DNA of 64,000 bases from assembly GCA_963082975.1 (NCBI GenBank), contig OY720346.1, positions 52,093,759 through 52,157,758 of the forward strand, read 5' to 3'. Made by a program: the position numbers and the translations under genes. Source of the DNA: Labia minor (taxonomy: Eukaryota > Arthropoda > Insecta > Dermaptera > Spongiphoridae). Positions 3,001 through 47,363 of this stretch are shown one piece after another. How positions within the stretch are numbered: position 1 is the stretch's first letter; every line of letters begins with the position of its first letter. The notes beneath the pieces are model-generated. The model searched no databases, was not told the origin of the DNA, and saw only the letters and a program-made list of their open reading frames with translations.

Positions 3001-3224
3001 TGTCGCCTCACCAAAGACTTGGCCTACCCATAGATTGGTAGTTTTTAAAGTATTTTTTTAAGGTATTCTATTTCTTCTTATGACATTATTTTTAAAGTCA
3101 ATGAAATGGTATGAACAGTATAATCTGCGCAAGAGTCACTCAACATTTGCTCTTCAGTCTTTTGTCAACGACGAAGGACACCTTAACTGTCTTTTAAAAA
3201 GATTTTATAACTTGTATCTATTTC
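1..3224. other. AT-rich intergenic sequence, no gene seen
   Basis: Very AT-rich sequence with homopolymer runs and a short (AT)n tract at about 2120-2141. The short open frames here (for example 1305-1517 on the minus strand) have low-complexity translations, no recognisable domain and no convincing splice partners. Slightly GC-richer islands lie at about 1390-1510 and 2440-2540, but neither gives a readable protein. The stretch 3000-3220 just before the LINE fragment is also unassigned. Confidence 0.6.
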
Positions 3225-4911: not shown

Positions 4912-5513
4912 AATTTTGACTGTCTCGCCAGAGATAGTATTGCGATCATTAAAATTTTCGATGTCGAGATTTTGATGTTTTTATACGTTTTGAAGGTCCC
5001 TGAGTCATTTTCATTAAGGTTGAGAAAAATGTCTGTGTGTATGTGTGTATCTAGACAAGATTATGCAAAAACGGTTTGAGCTAGAATCAAGAAATTTGGT
5101 ATATGGGCTTTATTCGAAATTTGTAGTTTTCTATCAACTTTTGAGAAATATAGCTCAACCGGAAGAGGGTCATTACCTACCATGTTTTGATTTTTTTCCT
5201 CTAAAGTGACCGTAAAAATAAAGATATATGTTTGATAGTTTTTTACATTATTAAAAATTGTATAAAACTTATGCATATATATAGAATTTCAGCTTGATTG
5301 AATCGCTGAAAGTACCAGAATTAATTTTTTAATACTACAAATCACGCGTCAACACGTGACGTGGTGCCATCAACAAAGAGCCAAACACGTGTTGGTTTAA
5401 TAAATGCTATTTATTAATTTTAATTTATAATTTAATTAATTAAATTTAATTTAAATATAATATGTTATCTAATCCAATTCAAATTGCGAGATAGTCGAGT
5501 GGAGACACTCCAG
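4912..5513 (+). repeat. Dispersed repeat family, copy 1 (unclassified)
   Basis: Roughly 600 bp, clearly similar in the same orientation to 21901-22444. Shared blocks include the ACTRTCTCRC start, a TGAGTCATTTTC segment, CAACCGGAAGAGGGTCATTA, the palindrome-containing GCCAAACACGTGTTGGTTTA, and an end at AGACACTCCAG. The start and the near-terminal GCGAGATAGT are inverted relative to each other, which hints at a DNA transposon. No coding capacity is seen, and short indels separate the copies. Confidence 0.75.
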
Positions 5514-6023
5514 CTTATTTTATATGATTTTAAAAACTTTTGTGAATAATGGAATATTTCACATAGTATAATAATATAATAGCATAATATTTCACCGTAG
5601 TTCAAAATATCCCAGAAGTATTGTAAAGACAGAAATAGCAGTTAACTTGTTAAAAATATATTTAAAAAAATATATTTAAAGATTTATCGAGTAATGGAAA
5701 TGGATCAACAATTAATTAAAATAGTCATGAAGAATTACTAATGGAAAGAAAATTCAATGAATCTTTGGACCTTTTTAGAAAATTTTAAAAATAAAAAAAA
5801 AATATTGCTATTATTTAAACAAATTAGGTGAGGAAACGGTTACAAGAAATTGGTTGGGTAAAGAAAAGAGAATAAGAATGAAGATTAATGATAATCAAAA
5901 TCAATGAAAGAAGGGAAGATGTAATTAATTTGATGATGTGATTATTATTATTGACAAAATAAATAATATATAATGACTAAATTATTATACTAATAAACAA
6001 TTCCTTATTATTATATTTATATA
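5514..6023. other. AT-rich spacer
   Basis: AT-rich non-coding sequence between the dispersed repeat and the Helitron. No open frame or repeat is recognised. Confidence 0.5.
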
Positions 6024-6254: not shown

Positions 6255-7050
6255 TATCTATCTACCTATGTGGCTCAAAGATACTCTAAAGTTCTTAGCC
6301 GCAACAACCACATTTCTCCAAGTGTCCCTATCCTGAGCCCTTATTCCATCTCTCTTACGTCCCTTCCTACGCGTCATTGGTTTTCCAAGCGGACGTTTTC
6401 CAATCGGTCTTCCCACCAATATCTTTTTCCTCTCCCATTCTTGCCACGTGCCCTACCTATCGCAACTTTTTCCCTTTTATAACCCTAACTATTTCTGAAG
6501 ATGCAGAGAGGCCATGCAATTTCTTGTTATACAGTCTCCCTCATACCCGGTGACCTCATCTTTCTTTGGCCAATAAATGCAGGGAAGAATCCTATTCTCA
6601 AATACTCTGAATCTACTCTCATCTCCAAGGGTCATAGACCATGCCTCCCACCCATATAATGCAACAGGCAAAATAATCTTTTTATATATTCCCTTTGATA
6701 ATAATTTTGAAGAGATAAGCCTCTTTATTGCAGATAACAGGCGTTTCCCGATTGCAACCCCGATTTAAATTCTTCTCAAATATTATTATCCTTCGTGATT
6801 ACATTCAATTTTTCTACATATTCAAATTCTACATTTTGTATCTTAAGATTTTGTATGTTAATACTCTTCCTCTTTGTTACTAAATATTTTTTCTTATCAC
6901 TATTAATTTCAAACCTCCATTAAATTTTCCTCGCTATCTGTAATTGCAATTGCCGAATCTCCTATTATATTTAAGTCGTCTGAGTAACCTAATATTTTAC
7001 AATTGATTTCCGCATCTTATTCTTTCTTTACTACCTTCAAGAGAAATTTG
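6255..7050 (-). mobile_element. LINE 3' fragment captured in Helitron A
   Basis: Minus-strand translation shows LINE RT C-terminal words ([18 protein letters not shown] at about 6500-6620) and the shared 3'-end block at 6262-6335. The same LINE segment, with the same junction to Helitron sequence, is present in Helitron copy B. It is degenerate and non-functional. Confidence 0.85.
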
Positions 7051-14200: not shown

Positions 14201-17200
14201 AATTGATTTGTGTAAATAATTTTAGTTATTGATATTTTTTGTTCTTTGTGTTTAAAACAGATTGTTATATGAATATTCAATTCAGGAATAAATATAATTT
14301 TATTGTATAAATTTAAGAATATAGAATGTAATAAGTTGACCTGTGGCCAGGTCGGAACCGACCGACGGTTTTAAGTAAATTAATTAGCAGCTACAGAAAC
14401 AATTTCAAATAATTTTAATATATCTATTAATGTAATAAAAAACAGATATGGATACATAAATAATAATATAAACATTTTTAATTTTATTTTATTTATAATA
14501 TATATGCAAGACCAGGCTGTGACGTTATGAATGGCTGGATGACGTCATATAATTTTAAATCAAGAAAAAACTAATAAATATGATTTTCCCGAGGATAAAA
14601 CCAATACAAAGTGCATGATTCGTGGTGATATATAAAAAAATCTCCTCATGTGAAATTTGGTGTGAAAATAACCCTTCCCTTCCTATCGTCGATCGCTAAT
14701 ACTACCACTTCCGGTTTCCGGATTTGCACCAAAAGTTGATCAATTCATCCCACTGATGCATTAAGTAAATATACCAAATTTCATCAAAATCCGTTCAGCC
14801 GTTCAGGCTGTACACATCTATACGGACGGACGGACGGACAGACATCATGCTAAAAATACTTTTTTCTGTTAAGAAAATGCATGATTCGTGGAGATATGTA
14901 AAAATCTCCACATGTGAAATTTGGCGTGAAAACAATACCTCCCTTACTATCGTCGGTCGGTAAAAATTACATATTTATCCAAAATATATTTAAATTATTA
15001 TTTACTTTTAATTATTATAAACAACAAAGATATAGTAGTATATAATATTGTTTATTTATTGATGTTAATATTTTTATAACTGAATATATAGCTCGATAAA
15101 TTGGTTTTCATCTTAATAAATTAATAAAAAACAAAATATGAATATACTGAATAATTTAGGATACCTCAGTGATAGATAAATCGGGTGAAATATCATTCTT
15201 GGTTCTCCGATTTGATACTGGCGTTGATGAAACTAAATTGGCCGATCTTTGGGTCCCATTTAAGCCGGTTAAAAGCATAACACCATTTTCTGGATGCTCC
15301 GTACGAAAATGATCTTGAATTGTCTTCCAATCCATCTCCAATTGAGCTTTACACATATGACACGAATACATTTTCTTTTCAGGTGGTGTCTTTTCAAACG
15401 CTTTTGTTAACATTTCCTGATCTTGGTCCGGTAAACGCAATAATTTACCAGATTTATCCGATGATTTTTTTAAAAAGAGAATATCTTTACCATTTCTTTT
15501 TTTTATTACTACTGATGTTTCTTTGATACATTGATTGCATCGTGGAATGAATCGTTGTTTGTCTGGTGGAGGCACTGAATATAATAAACGTTTGCCACAT
15601 CCCAAACATTTACATAATTCTTGTTTATTCTCATTGGCGTTTGGAGATGAAAAAGAAGGGGTTGTTTCTACATTCCCACCTGTATCATCATTAGAATGCT
15701 CATGTTGGCTAAATTCTTTTTTACTAGGAGTAAGGAATTTGCATTTGGAACACTGATAAGCTATGATTTGAACTTTTTGTTCTTTACTATGAGCACTAAC
15801 GTGAAACAGTGTCTGTGATTTAGGAATTAATCGATCTGGACATAATTTGCATTGTTGGTAAGAATTAATAGGTCCCGAATTTAGATTATGACATTTTAAC
15901 TTATGTTCTCGAAGTGCTTCTACGGTAAAACAAGCAATGGGGCAAGCATTACATTTAAATACATCTTTCACATGTCCAGTTAAAAGATGAACCTAAAAAC
16001 AGATATTTTTTTCTTTAAAATAAGAATTGAAAAAAATATTTAATAGAAAGAGAATTAACATTTTTTTAAGTTTAAAATGTGTAAGTTTAATGAGTAATTA
16101 AAAAATAGTAAAAATGTAACTAGAATTTTAATGTTTTTCAATAAAATTTGATATAAATTATAAAATCGACATTATTAAAGATTATTATATTATTAAATAA
16201 TTATAAATTATAGAAAATAAATAAAAATTTATAGGCTAACAAAAATTTAAGTCAATATATTTTCAATGAGAAAAATTGAAAAAAAGATATCTATTATAAA
16301 TTAAATAAAAATAATAATAATGAATGAAATATAAATATATATAAATATTACCTGATATGTGACCATCGTTTTAAAAACATCATTGCATTCTGGGCACAAA
16401 ATACCTATAGATTTATCTAAATGAAAACATTCTGTTTTTAAATGTTTGTTCAATTCATTCCAAGTTGAAAATTTTATGACACATTCAGGACAAATAAATG
16501 GTCGTTTCATTGAATGGAGACGTTTATGAGCTAAGTAAGAACATTTAGTAGGAAGTGGCAAGGAACAATCCTTACATGTAAGCTCTTCCTGAAAGGGAAT
16601 AGGCAGAGTTGAACCTAGATAATGTGACTTCATCTAAAACAAAAAAGAATAACAAAATTTATTTATTTAAAAAAGTTTAACTTTTTTCTTCTTAGCTTAG
16701 ATTACGAATGCTAAATATTATTAGCCTTATAAATTATATCTATCTATCTCTATGGCTCTACGGAACTCGAAAGTTCTTGGGTGCAGCAACCACATTTCTA
16801 CAAGTGTCCCCATTCTGAGCTACACTCATCTAACTCCTATCCTCCTAAAATTTTAAAATCATAAAAAAACACAAAAGTTTTAATAAATAATTTATAATTT
16901 TTGTCATTTTTAAAAACCTTTAAAATTAATTAATAGCTCAATGAAACTTTATTAACAAAATTATATATGCATTAAATAAGATTAAAATTTCTTAATATTT
17001 AATCCGCTATGTATGATAAATACCCTGGAAATATTAAAGGTAGATAAATGAATTATGAAGCAAATAAATTACCAAAATCATTATGAAAATTATAATGCAT
17101 ATATAATTTGATTAATAAATTTCTTTAGCCAAGACACTGATGGAACCTCTTGGAATAATAATTGCATGGTTTTGATTAATATAATTTTTTTAAAATAAAT

Positions 17201-20025: not shown

Positions 20026-20814
20026 CAGTATTTGAGAATAATTCATTATACATAAATCTGACTTGATTAAGACCTAATTAAGAAAACAAAATTAAAATAC
20101 ATTTTTTAGGACAATTATTATTTGAAGCAAGAGTCACCTCAGCAACAAAGGCCATTCGTGTAAGGAAATCAACTCAATCTCATTCTTCACCAAGCCATCC
20201 TTTCAGGCTTAATTGCCTTCTTCTCGTCAGAGCAATTAATGAGGATTTAGATGTTATATTTGTATTTGATTTTTTTCCCTTTCACATCTTTATACTATTG
20301 TTTAAATCTTATTTATATTCAAAATTATCTAAATTGATTAAGACTTTTAATGTTAGTAAGCCAAAAACTTCTAAATATATATATATATATGTGAATAGTC
20401 ATTTAATATTATTGTTTTTCTTTAAAATCAATGAATTAAGCAAATGAACATAGTTAATTTTATGGGAATATTATGAATAGTTTGAAAATTCTTAAAGTTA
20501 ATATATTGATGTAATTTATTTTTTGTATTACTTATTTCTTCTTATAATTAAATTGGGGATAAAATTGGAAATAATGAACCAAAGAAAAAAAATAAAATCA
20601 TGTTTTTATAAACAATATCGTATAATATATTTTTAAACAAAATGTAATTTATTTAATAAAATATTAGGAAAGTAATTCATCAGTTGCCTATAAATATTTC
20701 GAATAACCTTTAATGTTTGTCAAATTTATGTAAGTATTCCATCTATAATAATTAATTAAAAAAAGCCTATTTTAATCTATTATTAGTATAAATTTAAAAT
20801 GATATACATATAAT
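18844..20814. promoter_or_regulatory. Upstream region of the zinc-finger gene
   Basis: No protein-coding gene is seen between the zinc-finger start codon and the LIG4 stop. Two GC-richer patches could hold 5' untranslated exons on the minus strand. One is 19383-19440, ending in a near-ideal donor AAG|GTAAGA at 19382. The other is 20138-20260, ending GAG|GTGACT. An alternative donor CAG|GTAATT lies near 19251. An (AT)n tract lies at about 19990-20021. These are inferences from splice-site context only. Confidence 0.35.
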
Positions 20815-21610
20815 TTAATCAATTTCCATTGGTACTTTTTCATCCTTGTAAGATTTCATAGGAAAATCATGCTCTTCCAATCGAGTTTTAAGACGACAAC
20901 ATTCAAAAACCCAATCACTACTTACTATAAACATCTTCTTTAGACGATTATCGTTGATATTTTTCCAATGGGTTATCTTATCACTGAAATAACATTATAA
21001 TAATAAAAATAATTATATATAATTTAAAAAATGTAAAGTTTTTACCTAGAAGAGAGAATAACATGCGTAACTTGTTCGGTTAATTCTTTGGATATTAATC
21101 CTCCATAAAATCTAAAGTCATTCGAGATCCAATCCATTTCCGAATTATTCTATAAAAAATTTAAAATATATAAAAAAATATAGGGTCGTTTTATGAAGGA
21201 AAAGACAATTATTTAAAAAAAAAACTGTTTAAAACGTAATTTCAAATTGTAAATTATCGATTAAAAAATGTATTGATAAAGAGACTTTAATGAAATGATG
21301 TTAATTTCTATTCTATTAAAATAGTATAGGAAAAATTTTAATTTTTTTTTGATAGATAAATATAATGATATTAAGTAGTATAGAATAATATATAAACTAA
21401 TATTTTGAGGATAAAATATTAAAAAATAAAAAAAATTGTTTATCCATAGCGGATGGTGTGATGGTCTGTGATCTGTCGTGTGAGCTATTGAAGGGGCCAT
21501 TGATTTTTAAGACAGGTGGCGCCACGAAGATAAAAAAAATAGTAGAGAATGGAAACCAATGGAAACCTTTGTTTATTTCATACCATTTTATATTTTAGAA
21601 AAAAGTTAGG

Positions 21611-21651
<41 letters not shown>

Positions 21652-24600
21652 TTTAGAATAATTAATAATTTAAAATTATTTTATACAATATACCTTTTCT
21701 TCAATAATGGCTGTACAAAGACGAAATATTGAAAATGGACTATTCCCGAAAAAAATTTCAATATCCAATTCAGACATTTCATTTTGTGTTAGAGAGATTG
21801 AATCCTTAAAAAATATAAAATGAAAAAATTATACAAATGCGTATTTATATTTATTAATAATACATAAAATAAATTAATTGGAACATTTGGTTGTATTTTT
21901 ACTATCTCACGAAAATTTTCGATGTCGAGATTTTGATGTTTTGATACATTTTGAAGGACCCTGAGTCATTTTCACTAAGGTTGAGAAAAATGTCTGTGTG
22001 TATGTAGACAAGATTATGCAAAACGGTTTGAGCTAGATGATGAAATTTGGTATATGGGCATTATTCGAAATTTGTAGTTTTCTAACAACTTTTGAGAAAT
22101 ATAGTTCAACCGGAAGAGGGTCATTACCTACTATGTTTTGATTTTTTTTACTCTAAAGTGACCGTTAAATATGTGTGATAGTTTTTCACATGATTAAAAA
22201 ATGGATAAAACTGCTATATATAGAATTCAGCTTGATTGAATCGCTGAAGAATTAATTTTTTAACACTGCAAATCACGCGTCATCACATGACGTGGTGCCA
22301 TCAACAGAGCCAAACACGTGTTGGTTTAATAAATATTAATTATTAATTTTAATTTATAATTTAATTAATTAAATTTAATTTAAATATAATATATGTTATT
22401 TAATTCAATTCAAATTGCGAGATAATTGAGTGCAGACACTCCAGATTTTTTAAATTGGAAACTTAATCAATCAACTAATTAATTAAAATATAATAATTTC
22501 GAATTTTAAAAATTTAGTTTATAGTTTCACTTACATCAACAAATACACAGGTGATAAGGTTTGAACCGATATAAAACAAACAAATAAATTAATTTTAAAT
22601 GAAATATATTATGAATCCCTCTATTATTCTGAAGCTTTCTAGTAGGGATTAATAAATATCAATAACAATTGTGGATTTCTTTCTTACTTCACACACACAC
22701 ACACACACACAAATATATATGTCTATCATATCTCTCCCTATTAATGTTGTATGATAATTGAATAAAATTAATTAAAAGGAAATTATATAAATCAACTTAC
22801 CATATGATCAAAACATTGATTGATGCTTCCTATTGTGGCTGGAATTCTATAGTTATCGCCATATTGATCATAAAAAAGATTGATTTGTTTTTTAGTTTTA
22901 TCCACGGCATGAATCATATCAAATGGAGTCCAATCTGGCTCTTCGATTGATTCATCAGGGGTATTTAAAAAACGCAATAACCAATCAATTTTTACCATAT
23001 CGTATTTGTTGGATTTTATAAGTGTTTTTACACGAAATGTAATATCTCCAACGATAATACAAAATGTATTTGTTCCTAAAAATTATCATCAATGATCATA
23101 TATCAAACTATATAAATTATCATAATTAATTTTTTAATACTAATTATGAAAGAAAGAATATTGTCGTTTATTTTTAAACAAAATCAAATATTATATATTG
23201 ATGAGAATAATAAATTATACATATATATATACAGGGCTGGGCTACCAACAATCTTAACAGAAACTTTTAGGATTAGAAAAAAAAGAATATTTAATATAGA
23301 TTTGTTTAATTTTTATTTATAAAATTATAGACGATTTTTAAATTTTTTTATAATAAAACTTATTAAGGTAATATAATTAAACGATAATTTAATAAAAATA
23401 TAATTCAAAAATGGCAGATGAGCATAAATGAGTATTAAATTTAACAAATAATTTTTTTATTCTCGGGTAATTTTCTATAGAGTTAATATTTTTAGTTTTG
23501 TCTTTCATAAAAGACACAGAATTTGTTAGAATTTTTTCTTCTTGTGGGATAGAAAATATATAAAAATCAACTTTCTCTGACTATCCTCAGAAGGCTCTTC
23601 TTTTTTTAATAATTTTTTATGATTGTGAATTATATTCAAACATAAATTGTTTATTCTTATTTTGTTTTCATCTAAATCTTCTGGAACCCATCTCATTTTG
23701 AAAGATAGATATTTTGTTTACTTTGTAAAAGATCCAATGCTTGTGCAATTGGCTTCATTAATTTTATATATTCTTCTAAATAAAATAGTTTTTCTTTATT
23801 CTTAAATATATGTTCAGAAGAATCGTATAAGAAATTCCATCTTGTTGGAACAGGATAAATCAGAGAACAATTCAAAATGACGGCAACGCAAAATTAAAAA
23901 AAAAAAAAAAATCGGTAGGAACTTAGTTTTTTGGGGAACTAGTTACTGTTCCCGTTTCAAAAAGTAACGTGCTCGGGGAACGCCGTTGCTTGTGACGTGT
24001 TACTGTCCATCCCTGTATATATATATGTATATAATTTCAAATAAATTTATTACTCTTTTAGAAGAAAACCCTATATCAAATGAAACTTAATTTAATATTT
24101 TATTGCATTTTAATGTATAATAATCCTACATATTAGAAATAAATGAAATTATTTTAGAATTTTTTATTTATATATATATATATATATATAAAGATTTAGT
24201 TTTTATTACCAGGATTTTGTGAAATTTTTCCACCATTCTCAATAATTTGTTTTTCGATAACATTTTTCGAATGTTCTTTGGTATCTGAAATGACACAAAA
24301 TTCTTTTTCTCTGAGTCGTTGCCCCTGCATAGATGGATCAGTAACATTCAATCGAAAATATGATGGCACAGGGTGACTTTTGATATTCTTTTTACGTCTT
24401 TTTTTGGGCACGGCCTCACCTTCAACTCCACTTGGTACATGACGAGAATAAAGTTTGCCTTGAGCCTCCTAGAATTGAATTAAATTTATTATTTAAATAC
24501 ATATCAAAATAACAAATAAATATTAGTCATAATAGAAATATCTAATAATAAAATTAAATAAAATAGAAAATGAGCAGTTAGCTTATAGGGGAAAATTTTG

Positions 24601-27600
24601 AACTATTCGTAATTTTTGAAAATAATCTCAAATTTTACGGTTAATGGTGATCATTAATTATAATTTATTAATTAATGCTTTAAGTATAAATTAATTTAAT
24701 GAGTTTTTAACTAGAAATTTAGAAAACAATTTATTTTAATATAATTCAACTAATTTATCCAATATATTTATTTGTATTGTACTTATATTGTATTATTGAT
24801 TATATTATTATGATTATATTATTATATATGTATTTTATATAAATATTATATATTGCCTATATTTCTTAATATTTGTCTCTATAATTATAAATACGAAATA
24901 TATAATATTTATTATAAAAACCAATTCAGCTTTTAATTAAAATTAAAATTAATTAAATCATTTATTGTATTTATTTATATATTATATTTTTATAAATTAT
25001 ATTATTATATATATATATTATATTTATATATTATGATTGTAAAAATTGATTCCTATATTTTATTTATTAATAAATTATCATATTTTATTTTTAGTAGATT
25101 ATATTTAAAAATAATTTAAATTTGCCCCAATCATTTGAATAAAAGCGCCCTCATTGGAAAATTTTTGTTGACATTTATTTTGAAAAAAAAAAAAGAAAAA
25201 AAGTAAATAAAATCTTAGTTTAATAAGACCAAAATACAAAATAATGAGAATAAGAATTTGGACTATTTTACAATTAATATCATGTTTTATATATATAATA
25301 GCTGAGGATGTAATTGAGATTGATCCACTCGGATATATTCTTTATTGTCCTTGTATGGGTAAGCCGGTTTAGTTTTGAATATTTACCTTATTTTACATTG
25401 AAAAATGAAAATGAATTAATTTAATAATTTAATCTTTTAAGGTCGTTTTGGAAATCAAGCTGATCATTTTCTCGGGTCCCTTGCATTTGCCAAAGGATTA
25501 AATCGTACCCTTGTTTTACCCCCCTGGGTTGAATATCGTTATGGAGAGCCTAAATCGGTAATTATTTATTTTATCCTTAACACTCTTTCTATTCCATTGT
25601 TTAAAAATAATACATTATTACATATTTAGTCTAATTATTTTTAAATAAATATACCTGTCATTAAATTTTATATATCTTAAAATATATATTATTCTATTGA
25701 TATATGTGAAAAGTAACTGACAAATTTTAATCTTGTATAATGTCAAAATAAATACAAGACTGGACTATATATAAATAAACAACTGAAAAGCAATTACTAT
25801 ACAAGCAAGTATTTTTATATTATATGTAAATATTATTTATATAAAACAGTATTCATAATTAGTAATTCTTTTTTCAACCATTTCCTTTTAAAATTAGTGT
25901 GTTTTTTTTAAACAAAAATAAATACATTTGAATATTTTAATATTTGAAACTTCATTAATAAATAATTAACACATGAAAGCAAAGTTTTTCTTCATTAAAT
26001 ACATTATTATTTTTATTATTATTAATAATAGTTTTCTCTTTTATATCTGTCAATAAATCATATAGGGATTATAGAGTATAATTTATTGATGTTTTCAGCT
26101 TCAAATACCATTTGATGAATATTTTCAAGTTGAACCCTTATTAAAATACCATCGAGTGATAACTATGGAAACATTTATGAATAATCTAGCACCAAAAATA
26201 TGGAAGGTAGAAGAAAGAATTTCATTTTGTTATACAGCTCGTGCTGGTGGAGTTGCTCAAAGTTGCAATGCTAAAGATGGAAATCCTTTTGGACCATTTT
26301 GGGATACATTCAATGTGGATTTTATTAATTCTGAATTTTATGGACCACTTCATTATAATATTTATGAACAAGATATGGCAAAAAAATGGATTGATCGTTA
26401 TCCTCCATTAAAATGGCCAGGTATTCAATATTTAATCATTAAAAAACAAATTTTCATTTTTCTTAAGATAGGATTTTTTAGTTTTGGCATTTACTGGTGC
26501 TCCAGCAAGTTTTCCTGTTCAAGATGAGAATCGTGAAATACAAAAGTATCTTAAATGGAAAGATACATTAAAACAACAAGCACAAGAATTTATTAAAGCA
26601 AATCTACTTAAAGGAGGTGGTTTTATTGGTATTCATTTGCGAAATGGAATTGATTGGGTAAGATAATTTTTATTCAAAATAGTAACAAAAGAAAAAAGAT
26701 TAAATTTTGAATTTATTTCCTTATTATGATTTTATTTCGTAACCATTGTATAATTATTTTTCAACCCCAATTTTATATATATTATGTATATTATATATGT
26801 TATTTTCTTTTAGCGTTATAAAAATTAATGATAAATTTATTAATTTTCTAAAACAAGATAATATTCTTCTAGGTTCGTGCTTGTGATCATATAACACAAA
26901 CTCCAAATCTTTTTGCTGCTCCCCAATGTTTAGGCTACCGAAATGAAAATGGTTTTGCAAATTATGATATGTGTATGCCAAGCCAAAAAACAATTATCAA
27001 ACAATTAAAACGATTAATTCGTAATGCCCAACCACCTTTAGTAAGTGTTTTTGTTGCCTCCGATGCGGATCATATGATTCCAATATTAATAAAAGCGTTA
27101 AAAAAATTAAACGTAAGTTTTAAATTCTATTAAAACAATTGTCATTTATCGATTATTTATATATTTTTCTTTTTAAATAATATTAATATTTAATATTTTA
27201 GATCAATGTAACTAAACTAGAACCATCGAATCCTCATCTCGAATTAGCTATTCTTGGATTATCAAATCATTTCATTGGAAATTGTATTTCTTCATTTTCA
27301 GCTTTTGTAAAACGTGAAAGAGATGCTAAAGGATTGCCGTCCAGTTTTTGGGCATTCCCCCAAAATAAATCGACAAATAAGAGTCCAAAATCCCACGATG
27401 AATTATAAATTGAATTCTTATAAAGTATTCTTATATTTTTATTTATTAATTTATATACAAATTTCTAATAAAATAATTTTTAAAAAATAACGTTTCAAGA
27501 AGTTTTATATTGTTATAAACCTTCATTGAAATTACATATCTCACATTAAAATAAATTATAATTGATTTTCGTTTTTATATATTAATTTATCAATTTATTA

Positions 27601-30600
27601 ATTATAAAAAATGCTATTATTTATATATTTAAAGTGTTGAATTAAATAGACCTTGAGGACAGATTGAGATGGTGTTCAGCTTCCAGTATATTTTTCATTT
27701 GAGTAGCGAGCTACACATATTTATTTATTTTTATCTTATTTTTCTTAATATTATTAGTGAGAGTGATTCCTAACTCTATTAAATATATATTAGCTTTATA
27801 TATAATGGTTGTTTAAGAGTTTTAAAAGTGAGAGGTATTTTCATAATTATTATTATTGGTAACTGTTGTAGTCTATGATTTTATTACACAGTTAGGACAG
27901 GTCTTCCCAGTATAAAATATTTTTCACCACTGGAAATTGCATGTATTTTTATTTGTAATGAGCGGTGTACATACCTCTACCAGTCCATATTTTATTTCCA
28001 ATTGATAGATAATAATTGGCTAGATGGTGATATCGATTAAGAATTCACTACCCATAATGTGTTCTATACTTTTACCGATGTTCCATTATTCTCAAGATCT
28101 TATTTTAAAATGAGAACTTCTTATAATTTCATATTCTTAATAAGGGGTCAGAGATCCCCTGTATTAAGAAGCCCTCAGTTTCCGGGTACAAGAATCCATC
28201 GTCAGCCCTTTTCAGAGAAGCCTTCTTGTTTGCATTTTTATCGTTGATGAGTTCCATGTAAAACTTTATTCTCCCAAGAGCCTAGAACCTTGACGCATTT
28301 AAAGTTATTATTAGTTAAATTTAAGGATGTTCATCCTCATGAAATTGTCTTTCGATTTCAGAAGTCTTTCTCTTATCTTTAGATCTTTTGATTTGCTTAG
28401 ATGAGATATATTTACATATATATTGATATCTATTAAGCTTTCCCATATTTGAGAAAAGTTTATCTGTGGAAGAGTTTTTGTATAGCAGCTTTTGTCAGAA
28501 GTCTTCTAGTTGACTAGGCCTGTGTTCACTACTCCAAATAAATCGATGGTACTGCCCAAGTGTTTATCTCAGTTATTAGGTTTTTTGATAATATATTAGT
28601 ATATATATATATTATAACTTGATTTTAAGTTCTGTGTGGCCGATCTTAATAGGTTTTGTTGTAGAGGTATAGATCTTGATATTTATATATATATATTTCC
28701 TCAGTTACTCTAGCATGTTCGTAACCTTTAACATCTTAAAATTATTATTATTCTCTTTTTTAACTATTGTCCCCCTGGATATGGGGTTCTGAGTCCAGTA
28801 TTTAAAAATAATTTTTGGAATATTCAAGGATAGTTCTTTAGCTCTACAAATCCCATATTAATTAAATCATTAAATGTGTTAAACATACCTGAAAAAGTTG
28901 ATAGAATTGCTCTAAAGTCATGCATTCTTCGATTTTTTTTTCATATCTGATCTGTTGTACTCGAGGAAAACGGAGAGTGAAACCAGCAGCAAAATCTTTA
29001 CTTCTCGTTATTTCAGTTGCTTTAACCTTTATCAAGAAAAATATATAATTTCTCTTAATTATTCTCTAGATAGAATTTATGAATTTAGCACTTTGCAATT
29101 TAAATGTATAATGACGAAAAAAAGAGAACGCTAGTCTAGCTCAGCCCCTTTCTCAACATCTTTAATATATAAATCAAAATTATAAAGAAATTAATTTTGA
29201 ATACCAATTCAATTTTAAATGATAGCCAATTTTATGTTTTTATGGTATTTTTTCCGTCACTATATATAATAAAAACAAATTTTTTTCTTACTTCTAAAAT
29301 AATTGAATGATTATCCTGAATCCATACATCTGGTTTTTCATAGTTCCATATAAGATTTGAAGCAGGAGCTTGGCCATGTTTTAAGTTTTTCCAATGTGGC
29401 AATAATTTCGCTGCTAGTTCTGCTAATTCTGAATGGGAATAACCTGATCCAACTTTACAAAAGGATAAGAATTCTAAAAAAAGAAAGAAAAATAATTAAA
29501 TATATTTATAAGAAAAATAAGTCGTAAGATAATTTTGAAAAAACTTACTTTCTTCATCTCGTAATCCCAATAAAAAATGGCTAATAGTACCACGATGTTT
29601 TCCTTCTCCATAATATCCTCCCATTATTATTAAATCTAGATGATCCATTAATCCTTCAGTATACTTAAAAAAATAAATATAAAAGAAAATCATTTAAATA
29701 TTTATAAAAAATATCCCATGATAAAACTATTCTTTTAAATACATTTTTTTAAAAAAATAATATAAGAAAAAAAAAGAAGAATACAGTAGAATCTCGATTA
29801 TCCGGAATAATTATGACGTGGAGGATGGTGTACGAAAATCGAATCGTTATTTATTTTCAAAGAGAAGATAAATTAGATTATATAATTTAGATACAAATAA
29901 TGAAGTTCAACATTAAGTTTTTTAAGTTTTTGATGATTTTTTTTTTATTTCATAGATATCTTGATTATTTCTTTTTTTATTTATATATTAAATATATAAT
30001 TTTATTAATAAACATTCATTCAAAGACAATTAAATAAGAATAAGCATATTCTTTTACCTCCGGCTTTATTTTAAACCATCCAGCAGTTCTTGCGTTTGGT
30101 TTATATATACTATTTGGTTCCTTAATAATTATTCCTTCCAAATGTTTATCAATGGCATCATTTAAATGCGTTGTAATCTCCAAACTGGTTTGAACTTTAT
30201 GCCGTTCTGTTAATTGAACAACACCTATTTTCGGAGTAATCAATTTATCAAGTAATTCAACTCGTTCTATATAAGGTCGATTAGTTAATACTTGGTTATT
30301 ATATAAAAGAATATCATAAATACAATAAAAGGGAACGTATTTATCTCCAGGTTTCAATTTTTTCACGTCAAATGTTATACCTAATGTGAACAATCAATTT
30401 CAATAATACACATTTAAATGAGATAAATTGAAAAAAGTAGTTAACCTTTGGTTTTGAATAATTTATTTTTAGGATCCCAGCCCATCATTTCTCCGTCAAG
30501 AATCAATTCATTACATTTAGAATCAAGTTGTGGTGCCAAAAGAGGCGTTAAAATTCCTTGACTTTGATTCGATCCAAATGTATTCGTATATTCAAAAGCA

Positions 30601-32663
30601 CCTCTGATTAATTTTATATATTAAATCAATTCTTATTATTTATATTCAATTTAATTTAATTGCATATTTTTATTCACTTACCTAGAAAAATATTTAAATT
30701 CTCCATTGCAAAAATGCAGTTGAAATCTCTCACCATCATATTTCGTTTCAACATAAAGATAATCATGAGTTTTTAAACATTTTTCAACATGTAGAATATT
30801 ACAACGATTTGCTAACATTGGCCTAAATGGTTCAAAAATAGAAACTTCAATCTCATGCAATCTTTGAGATGCATCTGTTAATCGTTCACACACCTAAAAA
30901 TATAATTCATATTTTATTATATTTATATCAATATGAAATTGAAAATTATTTCATTAACTAAGTGATTACAAATGTCACGATAAAAATAATAAAAATGATT
31001 TATTTATTTATTTCATTAGAATAATGTTCTGAAACTGCAGATTAAAATATAATTTAAGTCTCGCGAATGAGATTGAAAAACGTAATAATTATAATATTAA
31101 TAAAAACTTAAATTTTTAATTAACTTTTTAATTTGTGTTCTCATTGCCCATTTAATAGTATTTTTTTTGAAAGACAAAAGGAAACCGTGAAAATAAAGAG
31201 TTTCTATTATGAAAACTAATAATCAAAACAGGATAATATTTAAAATGTAATTAGTATTTTGTTTTATTTTTCAAGACATACCTTTACAAGATTATTGCAC
31301 ACATCGAAAAGTTCTAATCCATCCGGATGCCATAAATTAAGTATTCGATTATGTCCAATTCCTATATTAATATTTTTTAATAACATTCGTATAATCCATT
31401 TTTGTTCCATTGGCGATGTCTTTTGAAGAAGTGCTGTTAATTCAATATCAATCCCCCCTAAAATATAAAAAAACTTAATAATAAAAATAAATATTTATTC
31501 ATCTTCTCTTAATCTTTAATTACTGGAATCATTAGCTGCATTTAAATCGGCGATTTTATCAAAATGTTGATTGAGATCATCAATATTAATTTCTCCACCA
31601 CGTGAAGCTCGGCCTTGTAGAACCCAAAAAGCAACATCAGCGAAGTCACCCGCATTTTGACCAGAATATTGGGGAACTCTTAAATTTCAAATTTATTATT
31701 AATAACTTAATTGTATATTATTTATAGTAAATTTAATGAATATTTTTTATCTCATTTCATAATTAACAACTCCTGGCGTTAACCAATTTTACTTTCAAAA
31801 TAGGGGGATTGATATTGACCAGAAAAAAAGCACACCCCTCCCGAACAAATAATTGAAATAAGTATAAATATTGATATTATATCTATCTCTGTGGCTCTTT
31901 GGAATTCGAAAGTTCTTGGCCGCAGCAACCACATTTCTCCAAGTGTCCCTATCCTGAGAACTATAACCATTCAACAACCTAAGTCCAAAAACTCGCACCC
32001 ATTCAACCCAAAATCCCTCATCGACTCTTGGTCATACTGATTAAGACCCAGAATCCCTAAAAATTCCCTCATAAATAAACTCTCTTGAAAATGGTGTCAA
32101 ATTGGGAGGCAAATCTCACAATTAAATGTGAAAATAACCCGGAAAATAATTTCTTATAATAATAAAAACTTTCACAGAAACCTAAACGAACAAATAATTA
32201 TATATATATAATTATTATTTAATACTTTAATTAATATTTCAATTTTATCATTAGAATTAAAAGAATATTGTTTTGTACCTAAAATTTATTAATTTTTGAG
32301 CTTGAATCCCATCTTTAGACAGACCTAAGATATTGACATATATTTTTGCCAATGTTGCTTCTTTAATTCCATAAGGACCCCTTTCTCGATCCAAACGAGG
32401 TAATAATAATCTCATTACAGGAAAAAAACTACCATTCTAGAAAAAAAAATATATTTATAAATAATAAAACAATATATTTTGATTAAATATTTGAATCAGC
32501 TTACATCTTTTAAATTTAAATTCGCTTTTTTAACATTCTCTTTAAATTTTCGTATATAATTACTTAATTCTTTTGCTTTTTGTTCTTTAATTTTAATATT
32601 GCATATTTTCTCCAATAATTTACATAAATCCTTTAATAATAATGTCGATGTTATCGTTGACAT
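20815..32663 (-). CDS. LIG4: DNA ligase IV
   Basis: ATP-dependent ligase that seals breaks in non-homologous end joining with XRCC4. Fifteen exons: 32663-32505, 32436-32279, 31678-31524, 31457-31282, 30893-30682, 30603-30446, 30380-30058, 29663-29549, 29473-29292, 29026-28889, 24468-24210, 23075-22801, 21804-21694, 21149-21046, 20983-20815. They give 897 residues with every junction in phase (the human protein has 911). The order is an N-terminal DNA-binding domain, the nucleotidyltransferase motif I KYDGER with adenylated Lys267, [26 protein letters not shown] and GWFKIKPE, an OB fold with [15 protein letters not shown]1 (EFCVISDT to [11 protein letters not shown]), the XRCC4-binding linker (YDQYGDNY) and BRCT2 ending [10 protein letters not shown]. 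It looks intact. Intron 10 (24469-28888) contains POFUT1 on the other strand, and other introns hold transposon relics. Confidence 0.97.
21611..21650. repeat. Compound (AT)n(AG)n microsatellite
   Basis: Perfect (AT)n passing into (AG)n, in LIG4 intron 13. The same compound design occurs at 46811-46852. Confidence 0.97.
21901..22444 (+). repeat. Dispersed repeat family, copy 2 (unclassified)
   Basis: About 544 bp, similar along its length to 4912-5513. It lies in LIG4 intron 12. It starts ACTATCTCAC and ends near GACACTCCAG, with an inward GCGAGATAA close to the right end. The core words AACCGGAAGAGGGTCATTAC and GCCAAACACGTGTTGGTTTA are preserved. No coding capacity is seen. Confidence 0.75.
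22690..22711. repeat. (CA)n microsatellite
   Basis: Eleven perfect CA units, in LIG4 intron 12. Confidence 0.97.
23232..24015 (-). mobile_element. hAT transposon relic with transposase remnant
   Basis: A 784-bp element in LIG4 intron 11. The left end is CAGGGCTGGGC. The right end read inward is CAGGGATGGACAGTAAC. An 8-bp TATATATA lies on both sides (23224-23231 and 24016-24023), which fits a hAT target duplication but is low-complexity here. On the minus strand, 23875-23693 reads [17 protein letters not shown] and later [18 protein letters not shown], the conserved region of hAT transposases upstream of the C-terminal dimerisation domain. Only this part of the transposase survives, so the element is dead. 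Confidence 0.8.
25244..27408 (+). CDS. POFUT1: GDP-fucose protein O-fucosyltransferase 1
   Basis: ER enzyme that adds O-fucose to Ser/Thr of EGF repeats, for example in Notch. Six exons: 25244-25358, 25442-25557, 26099-26420, 26482-26657, 26873-27112, 27202-27408. They give 391 residues (the human protein has 388). Features are an N-terminal hydrophobic signal peptide (residues about 5-19), [20 protein letters not shown] for GDP-fucose binding, the conserved [20 protein letters not shown] with the likely catalytic Arg238, [20 protein letters not shown] near the end, and a C-terminal HDEL ER-retrieval signal. The gene is complete and lies wholly inside LIG4 intron 10 on the opposite strand. 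A possible polyadenylation AATAAA lies near 27470. Confidence 0.97.
27645..28850. other. Unexplained GC-richer non-coding segment in LIG4 intron 10
   Basis: Between the POFUT1 stop and LIG4 exon 10 is about 1.2 kb that is less AT-biased than the flanks and free of long homopolymers in its first half. It has no credible open frame beyond 62 codons, no recognised repeat and no mitochondrial rRNA signature that I could see. It could be a non-coding transcript or a unique old insertion. I assign no function. Confidence 0.4.
29784..29850 (+). mobile_element. Pogo/Tigger-like terminal inverted repeat, solo
   Basis: The sequence TA followed by CAGTAGAATCTCGATTATCC strongly resembles the ends of pogo/Tigger DNA transposons, which insert at TA. 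A matching opposite terminus was not found, so only one end is recognisable. It lies in LIG4 intron 7. Confidence 0.6.
31881..31990 (-). mobile_element. LINE 3'-end fragment in LIG4 intron 2
   Basis: The minus strand reads [20 protein letters not shown], the extreme C-terminus of the LINE ORF in this window's repeat family. It matches the blocks at 3230-3300, 6262-6335 and 16737-16820. Confidence 0.88.
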
Positions 32664-33566
32664 TTTGATTATAATCTAAAATAAAATAATGTTCTATTCT
32701 CATTATATTTTTAAAAAATATAGGGTTTTTAGAAATTAACATTATATATAGATTAATCAAATTATATATTTGTTTTTTTTCCTACTTATATCAAACTTAA
32801 TCTTAAATCTATTATTATAAATTATCAAATATCTATTTGAATTTTTCGTTAAATTATTAGAAATACAAATTAGTACATTTAAAATGTTTTAAATAAATTA
32901 ACTATTTAAATGTAAACAGATACTTTTAAAATAAATACTAGAAACAATTTTTTGTTATAAATTATTACTAAAAAGCAAAATAAATCTATATTTATATATA
33001 TTTCCTGTTTATCTTTTAAATAAAAATGATTGAAATATTTCATGAAAGAATTAATATATATATATATATAAGATATTCATTAAATGAAAGAAAACCTCCT
33101 TATTTACGATGGTACACTTACAATTAATCAATAAGTTATTAAGATTTTATTATGACCAAGTCAAGCATAAATAAACCTGAAAAAATGGATAAATATTAGA
33201 AAAAAATAGTACTAATCTGAATTAAATTATAAATTATTAAATAAATAAAAGAAAAATTATTTGGTCAAATTTGAGTCAATACAAAGTAAAAATAAATCTC
33301 AAAAATTTAAAAAAATTTGCATATATATATATATATACATGAATGGGTGGAAATGTAATTGTATTTTTTTTTTCGGTGCTCTTCACAGCTGATTTTATTA
33401 TGAAATTTAAAAATTAAAAAGAATAATTTATAATTTAATAATTTTGTTTTGTTTTATGTAAATTGATTAAAAAAAAACTTTTAAAAATAAAATATTTAAA
33501 ATTTTATTAAATAAAATATATTTATATATATACACGATTTGTCCATTACAATCTTTTTTTTTTGTT
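32664..33566. other. Intergenic spacer between GTF3C3 and LIG4
   Basis: About 900 bp of AT-rich sequence containing the GTF3C3 3' region and the LIG4 promoter (same strand). (AT)n tracts lie near 33056-33071 and 33320-33338. No clear core-promoter motif could be assigned. Confidence 0.5.
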
Positions 33567-36173
33567 TTATATAATAAGATATTTTTCAATATAGTAGGTA
33601 GCAAGATCAATGGAATCTGCATTTTTATAAATAGAATATAAATTAAATGCAGCTTCCTTTTTAAGATCAAAATTAGGCCCTAGTTTTGAATTTATTTTTA
33701 ATGTTTCTTTGTAGAAATGAATTGCTTGAGGCAACAGGCCGAATTGATGATGAGCTCGTGCCAAGTTGTAAAATACTTCTTGTTGGCCTAAAGGGCATCG
33801 CATTTTTTGGTATTTACTAAAGAAACCAATGGCTTGAGTGACAATCGCGTGTTTTTGTGAGGTAAATTTTTGACACGCCATTTGGGTTAAAGTGACACCT
33901 AGAAGAAAAAGCATCATTGGATCATCCGGTTGCAATCGATGGGCATTTGCATATTCATTCAAGGCGTATTTATAAGTTCCAGCTATTAAACAATTATTAG
34001 CGTGAAGGATCAAGTAATTGGTATTTGAACTTTCCCGAGACAAACATCGCATAATGAATCGATTATGGCGAACATCTTCAGCACGTTGAATAATTAAATT
34101 AAAAAAATTCCAAATTCGAGGAAATTTTGGCTCTTTCATTAAAAAATCGCGAACTAAATTATAACCATTGAATGTGTCATCATTATAAAAGGCGCTTAAT
34201 AGGCAGAGAAATTCAATTCGCGGGAAATTTACTTTGTCGTGCATAAATAATCGAGAGCCAAGTGCAGAAAATGTCAATCGTTGAAATCGAGCAAGTTGTC
34301 CAGTCTCTAAACAAGCATTACATAAATCTTTTAATAGATTCCATTCATCCCGAGTGTTCGGTTGTCGTTTTGTATCTCCAAAATCAGGCGCATTAAGATC
34401 CATATCTGGTTCTCCTCGATTCACCCTTAACTCCTTAATTTGATCTTTCTGTCTATCCGATCTTCTTAATCGTATCACAATTTGTACTTCCTCAAGACTG
34501 CGTATCTCAACACAATGTCGTGATAAAAGCATTTGCCCAACTACTAAAAATTCCTCAATTTTATGAGCACCTGCTTTTTTTAATAATTGTGTTCTTTCGT
34601 ACAAGAGGCCAGGTTCTAAAATTTCGGTATTTTCATCCTGGGTTAACACTTGTAAAGCTTCTTCATTTTTTCCTAGCTTGGAATATAATTGCGCAAGTAC
34701 TAAGCGCGCTTCTAAATGTTGAGGTGCCATAGTAACAACAATTTCATAAGCGGCTGCACTCTCCTCTTCGAATCCACAAGCATGAAGACATTCCGCTTGT
34801 CGAAGCCACACCGCGGCCAAATAATAATTTTTACCATTGACAAGAGGTTTAAGCAATGTAAGCGCATCTTCATGTTTGTTTTCTGACATTAAAGCCTCGG
34901 CAATATCTAAATAAAGATCCCCGGTCTGTTCGGGGTCACCTTTTTTAAAAAATAATTCAATCAAGTCATTTATTAAATGAAATGATTTTAAATTAATTAA
35001 AGTGACAAGAAATTTTGCTAATAGATCCACTGCTAAATCATCTGGAATTTTATAGGAGATAATTTTAAATTCATTGTCATCGTTAGTTTCGGCTTCGATT
35101 TCCACGTTGGAATATTGTATTAGGATTTCTAAACATCGGGTATAGAATTTTAATGATATTAATAATTCAAGAATTAAATTGACATCTTCACATCGAATAC
35201 TATTAGGGCATTTAGCGAAAGCCATCGACATCACGTCATAAGCTTTACTGATTTCATCCATTTTATGGTACCGTTTAGCTACCATTTTGGATAATTGGAG
35301 AATAATTTCTCCCTGTGCCGGTTCTAAAATTGTGATTAAACGAATATAAGCTTTTAATGCATTTTTACTTTCGCCAATACTATCTAAAAGAGAAGCACGT
35401 GTCAAATGTGGTTCAATATTTGTAGGATCTGCTTCAATAGCTTTGGAATAGCAGGTGATTGCTTGTTTGATATTGCCTAGGTTTTTGGACAAGGAAGCCA
35501 ATTGAATCCATTGATCAGGATCGTTTGGGCTTAAATAAGCAGCGATCAATGCAAATTGGAGAAATTTTTCAGGAGATCCTGCATCTTCATAGGCGTGAGC
35601 AATTGTTTGAAAAGGTTCTGGTGCTGTAGGTACTTGTCTGATAATTTCCAAACATAATTTAATAGCTGTGTCGGGTTCACCTCGAGTATATTTTAAATTA
35701 GCCAGGCCCATCATACCTCTTAAAACTGGCGGCAGAACATTTCTTCGTCGACTTCGTTTCTTTGAAGAATTTGATTTACAGGTTGAAGCAATTTCTTTAT
35801 CAAAAAGATCAACCTCTTTAGAAGCATTTAATGAAAACTCTTCTTGATTTTCATTTGGATTATCCTCAGCCTCCATTAAAGCTGCATATTCAATGAAACT
35901 TAATTTCCCATCGATATATTTGTCTGTTACTTGTTTTTCTTGATGTTGAATTGTTGCTTTTTTTTCATTATCATCTTCCTCTTCATCCTCACCGGAATTC
36001 GTACAATCATCGGATATACTTTCGGAATCAGATTTTAGTTCAATCATTTCAACTTCGGCAATTTCTCCAACACCTTCAATTTCATTTATCATCGGTACAT
36101 CTTCCAATTCAATTTCTATTACATCTTCCTTGCTTGTACTTGGTAAGGGCTCTTGCTTTATTCTACTAGCCAT
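33567..36173 (-). CDS. GTF3C3: General transcription factor 3C polypeptide 3 (TFIIIC102)
   Basis: TPR scaffold subunit of TFIIIC, which binds A/B-box promoters and recruits TFIIIB to RNA polymerase III genes such as tRNAs. It is a single uninterrupted 868-codon frame (the human protein has 886). The N-terminus is acidic (residues 20-70, with GEDEEEDDNE). A basic KKRSRRR at 138-144 precedes the conserved VLRGMMGLANLKYTRGE. TPR units follow: EIIRQVPTAPEPFQTIAHAY, YSKAIEADPTNIEPHLTRAS, then VWLRQAECLHACGFEEE, and C-terminal VFYNLARAHHQFGLLPQAIH. The lack of introns is notable beside intron-rich neighbours. It is divergent from AK6, with about 710 bp between start codons. Confidence 0.97.
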   Translation of the reverse strand: MASRIKQEPLPSTSKEDVIEIELEDVPMINEIEGVGEIAEVEMIELKSDSESISDDCTNSGEDEEEDDNEKKATIQHQEKQVTDKYIDGKLSFIEYAALMEAEDNPNENQEEFSLNASKEVDLFDKEIASTCKSNSSKKRSRRRNVLPPVLRGMMGLANLKYTRGEPDTAIKLCLEIIRQVPTAPEPFQTIAHAYEDAGSPEKFLQFALIAAYLSPNDPDQWIQLASLSKNLGNIKQAITCYSKAIEADPTNIEPHLTRASLLDSIGESKNALKAYIRLITILEPAQGEIILQLSKMVAKRYHKMDEISKAYDVMSMAFAKCPNSIRCEDVNLILELLISLKFYTRCLEILIQYSNVEIEAETNDDNEFKIISYKIPDDLAVDLLAKFLVTLINLKSFHLINDLIELFFKKGDPEQTGDLYLDIAEALMSENKHEDALTLLKPLVNGKNYYLAAVWLRQAECLHACGFEEESAAAYEIVVTMAPQHLEARLVLAQLYSKLGKNEEALQVLTQDENTEILEPGLLYERTQLLKKAGAHKIEEFLVVGQMLLSRHCVEIRSLEEVQIVIRLRRSDRQKDQIKELRVNRGEPDMDLNAPDFGDTKRQPNTRDEWNLLKDLCNACLETGQLARFQRLTFSALGSRLFMHDKVNFPRIEFLCLLSAFYNDDTFNGYNLVRDFLMKEPKFPRIWNFFNLIIQRAEDVRHNRFIMRCLSRESSNTNYLILHANNCLIAGTYKYALNEYANAHRLQPDDPMMLFLLGVTLTQMACQKFTSQKHAIVTQAIGFFSKYQKMRCPLGQQEVFYNLARAHHQFGLLPQAIHFYKETLKINSKLGPNFDLKKEAAFNLYSIYKNADSIDLATYYIEKYLII

Positions 36174-36277
36174 GATAATTTAATTAAATTTTAGTATAAG
36201 TAGTGTGAAAATTACCAATTATTTTTGAGTTGTATGATGAATAATTTATATGTAAATCTATATATCTATATAATGAC

Positions 36278-40849: not shown

Positions 40850-42814
40850 ATGAAGATCGGACTGTTTTTTTTACTATTCCTAGTTAGTTATTCTACTGCA
40901 AATGAAGAGGATGTTTTAGAACTCTCTGATGATGATTTCAATTCAAAAGTCGCTCAACATGAAACTGTACTTGTAATGTTCTATGCCCCTTGGTATGCAT
41001 TAATCATTCATTATAATTTATGTAAATTCCAATATTAATAACATTTTCTCTTATTAATTTAACTATTTTTCAGGTGTGGCCATTGTAAAAAATTAAAACC
41101 TGAATATGCCAAAGCAGCAGGAATCTTAAAAGATAATGATCCACCTGTAATTCTTGCTAAGGTAAATTATACCTCACTATTTTAATCTTAAATTTAAACT
41201 ATATCGTCTTTAATATTATTTATTATATTATTTTTAAGATTAAAATATATATGCTTATGTTTATTTAGTTTTTAGACAAATATTCAAATTTTCTTGGTAT
41301 TTTATTTTTTTTTTTATAAAATTTGACCATTACTAATTTATTTCAATTAATTTAATATAATAATATAAATATGATATATAAAATTTATAAGTTGTTGAAT
41401 TAATAATCAAAAAAATATAAATACTATTAATTCTAATAAATATATTAATGCAATTTTTTAGGTTGATTGTACTGAAAATGGTAAAGAAACTTGTAATAAA
41501 TTCAGTGTAACTGGATACCCAACTTTGAAAATCTTCAGAAATGGGGAACTTTCGTCTGAATATAATGGTCCAAGAGAAGCAGGTACAATTACATTTTTTT
41601 CATAGGGGCATTATAATTAAATGAATTTCCATAATACTAAATGATTTTAAGTTTAAATTCGTATGTATCAACCTATGCATAAATATGTGTTAGTCTTTGG
41701 AGAAGTTGTTTTGAATTCAATTGTAATTTATGCAATAATTAATGAATTTTCTAATTTATCTTTATATTTAAAAAGATATCATAATATATATTTTACTTTT
41801 CCTAAGAAACATGTTTCACTAAGAATTTTAAAATATATGTCATTATTACATGTCATTGTTACATCATTATTACATGTCATTGTCATATCATTATTACATG
41901 TCATTGTCATATCATTATTACATGTCATTGTCATATCATTATTACATGTCATTGTCACATCATTATTACATGTCATTGTTACATCATTATTACATGTCAT
42001 TATTACCTGGAATGAAATTTAATTAATTATCTGTTTAGAGTTTCTTGATTGGTTATCAAAATTGTTATATTAGATTAAAATGATTTTAAAATTTTAATAT
42101 AAAATACAATTAAATTTAAATTAATTAATTTAATTTAATTAATTTTTTTCTCTTTTAAATTAAAAAAATAGATATCCATTCACATATAAATCTATTTGAT
42201 TCTTTCTAGGTGGAATTGTTAAATATATGAAGGCTCAAGTCGGTCCTAGTTCCAAAGAACTCACCTCGACATCTGATTTAGATAGTTTTCTTGATAAAGA
42301 GGATGTTGCTGTTGTTGGTTTCTTTGAAAAAGAAACTGATCTTAAAGGTGTTTTCTTCAAATTAGCTGATAAATTAAGAGAAAAAGTTAGATTTGGACAT
42401 TCTACCCATAAAGGAGTGCTCACCAAACAAGGACAAAGGTAATTTTATAAACCAACAATTTCACAGATTTAATATATATTTATAAATTAATTATATTCTA
42501 ATTAATGAATGTTTGTTCTTTTAAAGCAACGCCATTGTTCTTTTCCGACCAAAACATTTGAAAAATAAATTTGAACCAGAATCTCTTGTCTATGAGGGTA
42601 AAGAAAGTAAAGAAGATTTAGAAGCCTGGATCAATGCCAATTAGTAAATAAAAAATTTTTTTTTTTGCTTTATTTTATTGATTTTATTATTTATATATAA
42701 TTGTTAATTGTTAACAGTCATGGTCTTGTTGGTCATCGAGTACGGGACAATACCCAAGATTTCAAAAATCCTCTCGTCGTTGGATATTTTGCTGTAGACT
42801 ATGTTAAAAATTCT

Positions 42815-45719: not shown

Positions 45720-46800
45720 TCACAAGAAGACATAAAAAATTATAGTACACAAGGAAGGAAAAAAGGCAGAAAAATGTCTAGCGGGAAAGAATATGCTCTG
45801 AAGTCGATATGCATTTGGGAAATAAGAAGACAAACATGGCGTGGAAGTTAGTCAAAGAAATGAAATGACATAACAAGGTGGCTGCAAAGATAAACATCGA
45901 AATATGGGGAAAAAGTACTATCAAGAATTGCTGACAGAAGGGGGGATATCGGAGATAGGATGAATGAAACACCTTCCACATAATATAGGAAATAATAAAA
46001 GCTGAAGTAAAAGAAGCTTTAAGCCAGATTAAAAATGGAAAAACTCCAGGACCAGGAAATATATATCTGAAATTACTGAAAGCATCACTCGAAATTCTCA
46101 ATGAATGCCTAGGAGGCGACCATCTAAACTCTGCTATTAAATAGGTTGGGGTGGTCCTGTTTGAAAAATTGACAAATTTAAGCTGTCAATATTCATGCTG
46201 AGGTTGCAAAAGCTCAATAAAAATGAAAAATGAGATTTCCGAAGGGTTTCACAAAAGGCTTACGGCAAATCATAAAACACTGCTCATCATTTAAATATTA
46301 TGAGTAAACACTTCCTCGAGGGGTAGAATCATCGAAGGCATTGGAAATAAAATAGGGAAGGGTAGAAGAGCAATCCACCAACTAAATTCGCTATTAAACA
46401 CCATGCTATACAAAGCAATTGCGCAGAGTATCTCGACATATGGGTCCAAAACATTACAACTAAATAAGAAGGATCAACAAACATGCTATTCCTTGAAATG
46501 AATTTCTGGAGGCGAAGTGCAAGAATTTCACCACATAAGAAATGAAAAAATATGTGGGATCATGAAAGTATACCAAGGCATCAAAGAAATAATACAGATT
46601 AAAAGACTTACAAGGTACGGTCAACTACAAATGATGAACGAACCAAGAACCAGGTGATCCAAGAAAGTCTTGAAATGGATACCTCCAGAATACCACCAAG
46701 AGTCCTGCAATCCTTGGAAACAAAAGGACTTGAGGAAGAAGTCTGGCAGAAAAGAAGATGGTGGCAGTTGAGATGCGAAAAGCGGCAAATTCCGTAGAAA
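45720..46800 (+). mobile_element. Degenerate LINE with reverse-transcriptase remnants
   Basis: The plus strand carries frameshifted RT pieces. At about 46000-46110 it reads AEVKEALSQIKNGKTPGPGN, the N-terminal RT signature. At about 46390-46480 it reads LYKAIAQSISTYGSKTLQL. At 46510-46650 it reads RNEKICGIMKVYQG and later IKRLTRYGQLQMM. The central catalytic region is not recognisable and many stops interrupt it. It belongs to a different family from the repeated LINE fragments. It is directly followed by a compound microsatellite and a mariner fragment. Confidence 0.8.
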
Positions 46801-46810
46801 ACCTCCCATG

Positions 46811-46852
<42 letters not shown>
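46811..46852. repeat. Compound (TA)n(GA)n microsatellite
   Basis: (TA)n passing into (GA)n at the junction of the LINE and mariner remnants, the same compound design as 21611-21650. Confidence 0.95.
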
Positions 46853-47363
46853 AAGTTAGTTACGTTTTGTGTGTTCCTCAATTTTTTACTTATCTCATCA
46901 ATTGTACCAAAACACTTTCCTTTCATTGGTCTCTTTAGTTTTGGAAATAGAAAAAAGTCGCAGGGAGCCAAATCTGATGAATACGGTGGTTGAGGCATGA
47001 TTACGGTGTTGTTTTTGGTCAAAAAACCACGAATAAGCAATGATGTGTGAGCTGGTGCATTATCATGATGCAGAATCCATTAATTGTTTTTCCACAATTC
47101 CAATCGTTTCGTTTGCTTCACGCAAACGTTGCGTAACTTCTTTGTAGTATTCCTTATTTTTTTAAAAGTAAAAAATCGAAGAACACGAAAACCGTGAATA
47201 ACTTTTTCGGTTGTCAAAAACAAACTACTAATCCAAAATGGCTCATAATGTCAACATATGAGAAACATATGTGTACTAACATAACAAGAAAAAAAATTTC
47301 GATAATCGAATATACACAGTCCGAGAAAATTCAAAATTCACCTTTTCTTTTGAAGAGACCTCG
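46853..47363 (-). mobile_element. Truncated mariner transposon
   Basis: On the minus strand the C-terminal part of a mariner transposase is readable: ILHHDNAPAHTS, then PPYSSDLAPCDFFLFPKLKR and GKCFGTIDEI. The catalytic HDN and the PPYSxDLAPCDFFLFP block are the family hallmarks. The outer end at 47363 reads CGAGGTCTCTTCAAAAGAAA inward, a mariner-type terminus abutting TA at 47364-47365. The other end is lost where the element meets the (GA)n tract. The N-terminal half is missing and the frame is broken. Confidence 0.88.

Follow-up and report, generated by a model that had tools for sequence, protein, structure and literature searches.

The arrangement of coding exons at this locus raises the question of whether the DNA ligase IV (LIG4) exons on either side of an oppositely oriented POFUT1 gene form a single gene, spliced across an intron that contains POFUT1, or belong to more than one transcript. 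We examined this question in the window, by which we mean the whole 64,000-base stretch of DNA analysed, setting the exon borders of both LIG4 and POFUT1 by hand from reading frame, splice signals and homology, without a gene finder.

The LIG4 coding region modelled in this way (20815..32663, minus strand) comprises 15 exons encoding 897 amino acids, with GT-AG borders at all 14 introns and a frame that is open throughout. The predicted protein scored above the Pfam cut-offs for DNA_ligase_A_N, DNA_ligase_A_M, DNA_ligase_A_C, RNA_ligase, BRCT and BRCT_2, while a PTCB-BRCT match fell below the Pfam cut-off. In phmmer comparisons with PDB chains, the best match was to 7lsy_X, named DNA ligase 4, which we take to be the human protein (E 2e-187, 628 bits, residues 3-872), and the top match under another name, a thermostable DNA ligase (2hiv_A), reached 136 bits. 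The order of domains, with N-terminal, catalytic and C-terminal ligase domains followed by two BRCT domains, together with this best match identifies the product as DNA ligase IV.

The intron in question, LIG4 intron 10 (24469..28888, minus strand, 4,420 bp, phase 0), separates exon 10 (28889..29026, minus strand), which was defined from the gene model and the alignment to DNA ligase 4, from exon 11 (24210..24468, minus strand). Its donor reads TTTCAG/gtatgttt after 28889, and its acceptor reads attcaattctag followed by GAGGCT before 24468. Since the remaining 13 LIG4 introns measure between 62 and 1,134 bp, the host intron is approximately four times the length of the next longest. When the splice sites of all 19 introns in both genes were ranked by a leave-one-out matrix score, the intron 10 donor came second and the acceptor 15th. 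Where exons 10 and 11 join, the alignment to DNA ligase 4 is ungapped; reading on beyond the exon 10 donor adds eight residues before a stop, and an in-frame TAG lies immediately before exon 11, whose first methionine is at exon residue 47. Because the join is ungapped, read-through of exon 10 meets a stop, and exon 11 has both an upstream stop and a late methionine, a LIG4 divided into two genes is unlikely, and the sequence points to one LIG4 gene that would be spliced across the 4.4-kb intron 10. The exact borders, phase 0 and the ungapped alignment to DNA ligase 4 thus bear out the original prediction that LIG4 continues across 24469-28888.

The POFUT1 coding region (25244..27408, plus strand) consists of six exons (25244-25358, 25442-25557, 26099-26420, 26482-26657, 26873-27112 and 27202-27408) that encode 391 amino acids, with GT-AG borders at five of five introns. 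Nearly the whole Pfam O-FucT profile was matched (PF10250, 1.1e-73, profile positions 1-325 of 326), and phmmer aligned the product to the PDB chains 5ux6_A, a POFUT1 (1.2e-103 over residues 27-376), and 3zy2_A (4.6e-102). Consistent with this assignment, all four matched sequences carry the name protein O-fucosyltransferase 1, in one case with the qualifier putative. The predicted protein has a hydrophobic N terminus, by eye a candidate signal peptide, and ends in SHDEL, in which the HDEL motif is presumably an ER-retention signal. The gene model and its near-full-length homology therefore confirm that a complete, six-exon antisense POFUT1 of 391 residues ending in HDEL lies inside the LIG4 intron, as had been claimed. 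A pattern search for POFUT1 among bacterial and archaeal contigs returned six matches, none of them a relative, and since the collection consists of bacteria and archaea this search is uninformative on synteny.

The whole POFUT1 coding sequence (25244-27408) falls within the LIG4 intron (24469-28888) on the opposite strand, its span of 2,165 bp taking up part of the 4,420 bp available. On the LIG4 side, the GT-AG borders, the phase 0 junction, the ungapped homology at the join and the in-frame stop before exon 11 mark LIG4, by sequence, as the external gene of the pair. Both gene models, with their frames, homology, orientation and containment, can be read directly in the DNA. Searches of the window with the LIG4 and POFUT1 proteins by tblastn (E up to 1) gave matches at their own exons only. 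The predicted coding sequences of the two genes have zero exons in common, so no conflict between them is visible in the DNA, and pairing between these coding sequences in mature mRNA is not expected; the "convergent transcription conflict" proposed for this locus is not shown by the sequence.

With respect to its surroundings, the window has a GC content of 24.0% over its 64,000 bases, similar to the values given in 2020 for the most GC-poor sequenced insects, Aphidius ervi (25.8%) and Lysiphlebus fabarum (23.8%) (PMC7257214). A scan of the window with Rfam, using gathering scores, yielded zero matches, and an open reading frame inside intron 10 (28041-28247) matched no Pfam family at E 0.001. 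Several LIG4 introns carry repeats. An interspersed repeat of approximately 0.55 kb in intron 12 (21912-22455) occurs again at 4951-5525 with 88% identity, and a short repeat piece in intron 2 (31878-31958) recurs at 3219-3299, 16741-16819, 6259-6337 and 50847-50899 with 86-91% identity. Intron 11 contains an element of ~0.8 kb (23216-24031) with 25-base inverted ends that are 96% complementary and read CAGGG..., set in TA-rich flanks; by eye we take it to be a decayed hAT-like DNA transposon, and its two open reading frames matched no Pfam family at E 0.1. Open frames at 46621-47079, 3353-3619 and 6489-6764 (all minus strand) and at 50580-50882 (plus strand) look transposable-element-like by eye, suggesting the end of a mariner transposase and the tails of retrotransposons, and none of the four has a Pfam family. 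A short tandem repeat at 41830-42020 is read through by several open frames on both strands, with repeated ITCHCHI and MTCNND words. Upstream of the intron-rich LIG4 and on the same strand lies an intron-free open frame of 870 codons (33567-36179, minus strand) that contains TPR repeats and resembles a TFIIIC subunit by eye.

We consider it very probable that the locus is an ordinary intronic (host-nested) gene pair, in which LIG4 is the host and an independent, intact POFUT1 lies within intron 10. Transcription and splicing are inferred here, as are the promoter and the poly(A) site, the untranslated regions, how the nesting arose and the lack of a functional link. LIG4 would be transcribed leftward and its 4.4-kb intron 10 spliced out, whereas POFUT1 would be transcribed rightward from a promoter within the 775 bp before its ATG. 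This stretch (24469..25243, plus strand for POFUT1), bounded on its other side by LIG4 exon 11, has a GC content of 13.8%. The POFUT1 transcript would probably end near 27.5 kb, where a possible poly(A) signal AATAAA (27467..27472, plus strand) begins 59 bases past the last base of the stop codon; this motif is one of 17 on the POFUT1-sense strand of intron 10 (dinucleotide-shuffle mean 11.7; 16 of 200 shuffles reach this count). The two mRNAs would have no coding sequence in common. POFUT1 most likely arrived in the LIG4 intron through a rearrangement at the DNA level, and the pair may persist without a functional link. Origin as a fresh retrocopy is ruled out for POFUT1 because the gene has five introns. 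Three observations weigh against the ordinary-pair reading, namely the rank of the intron 10 acceptor, the excess of AATAAA motifs in the LIG4 sense, and the six exons of the internal gene.

The AATAAA excess bears on the alternative that LIG4 is split. Under this reading a short gene would end at ~28.9 kb, the BRCT exons at 20.8-24.5 kb would be part of a different transcript, and POFUT1 would sit between the two. On the LIG4-sense (minus) strand of 24469-28888 the motif occurs 31 times, compared to a dinucleotide-shuffle mean of 20.3 (sd 4.5), and only 2 of 200 shuffles reach this count, so that early polyadenylation of LIG4 within intron 10 is conceivable; a BRCT-only product starting from Met 47 of exon 11 would also be possible in principle. 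However, both sides of the intron are in phase 0 and match DNA ligase 4 jointly, exon 11 has no methionine among its first 46 residues after the in-frame stop, and a ligase stopping at exon 10 would be without its BRCT domains, since both Pfam matches (BRCT at residues 644-713, BRCT_2 at 821-881) come after the exon 10/11 join. We therefore regard a split LIG4 as very unlikely. That POFUT1 was misplaced into the LIG4 intron during assembly is, in our estimate, extremely unlikely. The 1-kb bin at 28001-29000 has a GC content of 31% compared to 24% for the window, and a 24-base stretch near one end of the intron (24948-24971) matches another near the opposite end (28857-28880) at 88%, although both are AT-rich. 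Since individual 1-kb bins of the window have GC contents anywhere between 10.5% and 40%, however, this bin is not out of line. Moreover, the 64,000 bases contain no N, and blastn at E 1e-5 matched the intron parts that flank POFUT1 (24469-25243 and 27409-28888) to nothing else in the window. Among the repeat matches listed within 20500-33000 (11 direct families and 25 of 43 inverted pairs), those touching intron 10 outside POFUT1 are AT-rich, and we read these intron-edge repeats, including the 24-base pair, as probable chance similarity in AT-rich DNA and not as traces of how POFUT1 arrived.

The remaining alternatives accept the nesting and give it a function. Antisense transcription could couple the expression of LIG4 and POFUT1 through transcriptional interference, for which the enrichment of LIG4-sense AATAAA in intron 10 could be cited along with interference reported for nested genes in human cells (PMC3192792) and inferred for fly nested genes in the work reviewed in PMC8467205. 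The protein-coding set searched in the human-cell study, as it is described there, comprised 31 tandemly arranged, same-strand genes (PMC3192792). Given that the predicted coding exons of LIG4 and POFUT1 do not overlap, and that the authors describing a comparable pair, tim2-2mit, report seeing no functional relation (PMC3786989), such coupling appears highly improbable. A more elaborate form, in which an old nesting is kept under selection because antisense POFUT1 transcription tunes LIG4, for example through a form that lacks the BRCT domains and ends in intron 10, where LIG4-sense AATAAA motifs are in excess, and thereby ties Notch glycosylation to end-joining repair, is one to which we would assign scarcely any likelihood. 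The ordinary host-nested pair remains the reading that we prefer, and the nesting would acquire greater significance only if the pair proved to be conserved across a clade or were shown to alter LIG4 splicing. Its value for annotation is practical, in that automated gene prediction could break LIG4 in two at intron 10 or overlook POFUT1.

Compared with known systems, the LIG4-POFUT1 arrangement is less surprising than had been supposed. The original prediction called it unexpected, but nested genes are common in animals and, in the mammals studied, lie mostly on the opposite strand to their host. The figures quoted in PMC3786989 put the nested share of genes, often antisense to the host, at ~6% for D. 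melanogaster, ~2.1% for C. elegans and 0.5% for human, and section 3.2 of PMC8467205 counts opposite-strand pairs as 220 of 296 simple nested pairs in human (74.3%) and 193 of 248 in mouse (77.8%). LIG4-POFUT1 shares with these simple pairs the presence of one internal gene within one intron (PMC8467205), although its six-exon POFUT1 is less typical than their internal genes, which that paper describes as typically short and intronless. For flies, work cited in the same paper indicates that expression diverges rapidly following nesting (PMC8467205). This particular pair is not general to animals, since the two genes are unlinked in human, where POFUT1 is placed at 20q11.21 (PMC6266312) and LIG4 at 13q33-q34 (PMC5055698). 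Our literature search, which covered open-licence papers, did not find a nested LIG4-POFUT1 pair, in agreement with the claim that it had not been described.

The closest parallel is 2mit, which lies in intron 11 of timeless2 (tim2/timeout) in Drosophila melanogaster and is likewise a protein-coding gene contained in one intron on the opposite strand (PMC3786989). Its host resembles LIG4 in having a role in chromosome stability, and the authors report that they detected no functional link between the two genes (PMC3786989). The genes themselves are different, and 2mit has two exons compared to six in POFUT1. As described in that study, Drosophila species have retained the tim2-2mit pair, which also occurs in the honey bee but not in four Lepidoptera (PMC3786989). 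The kind of arrangement seen here is thus well known from hundreds of animal gene pairs, of which LIG4-POFUT1 is one more, and it makes one well-defined addition to the many nested genes already described.
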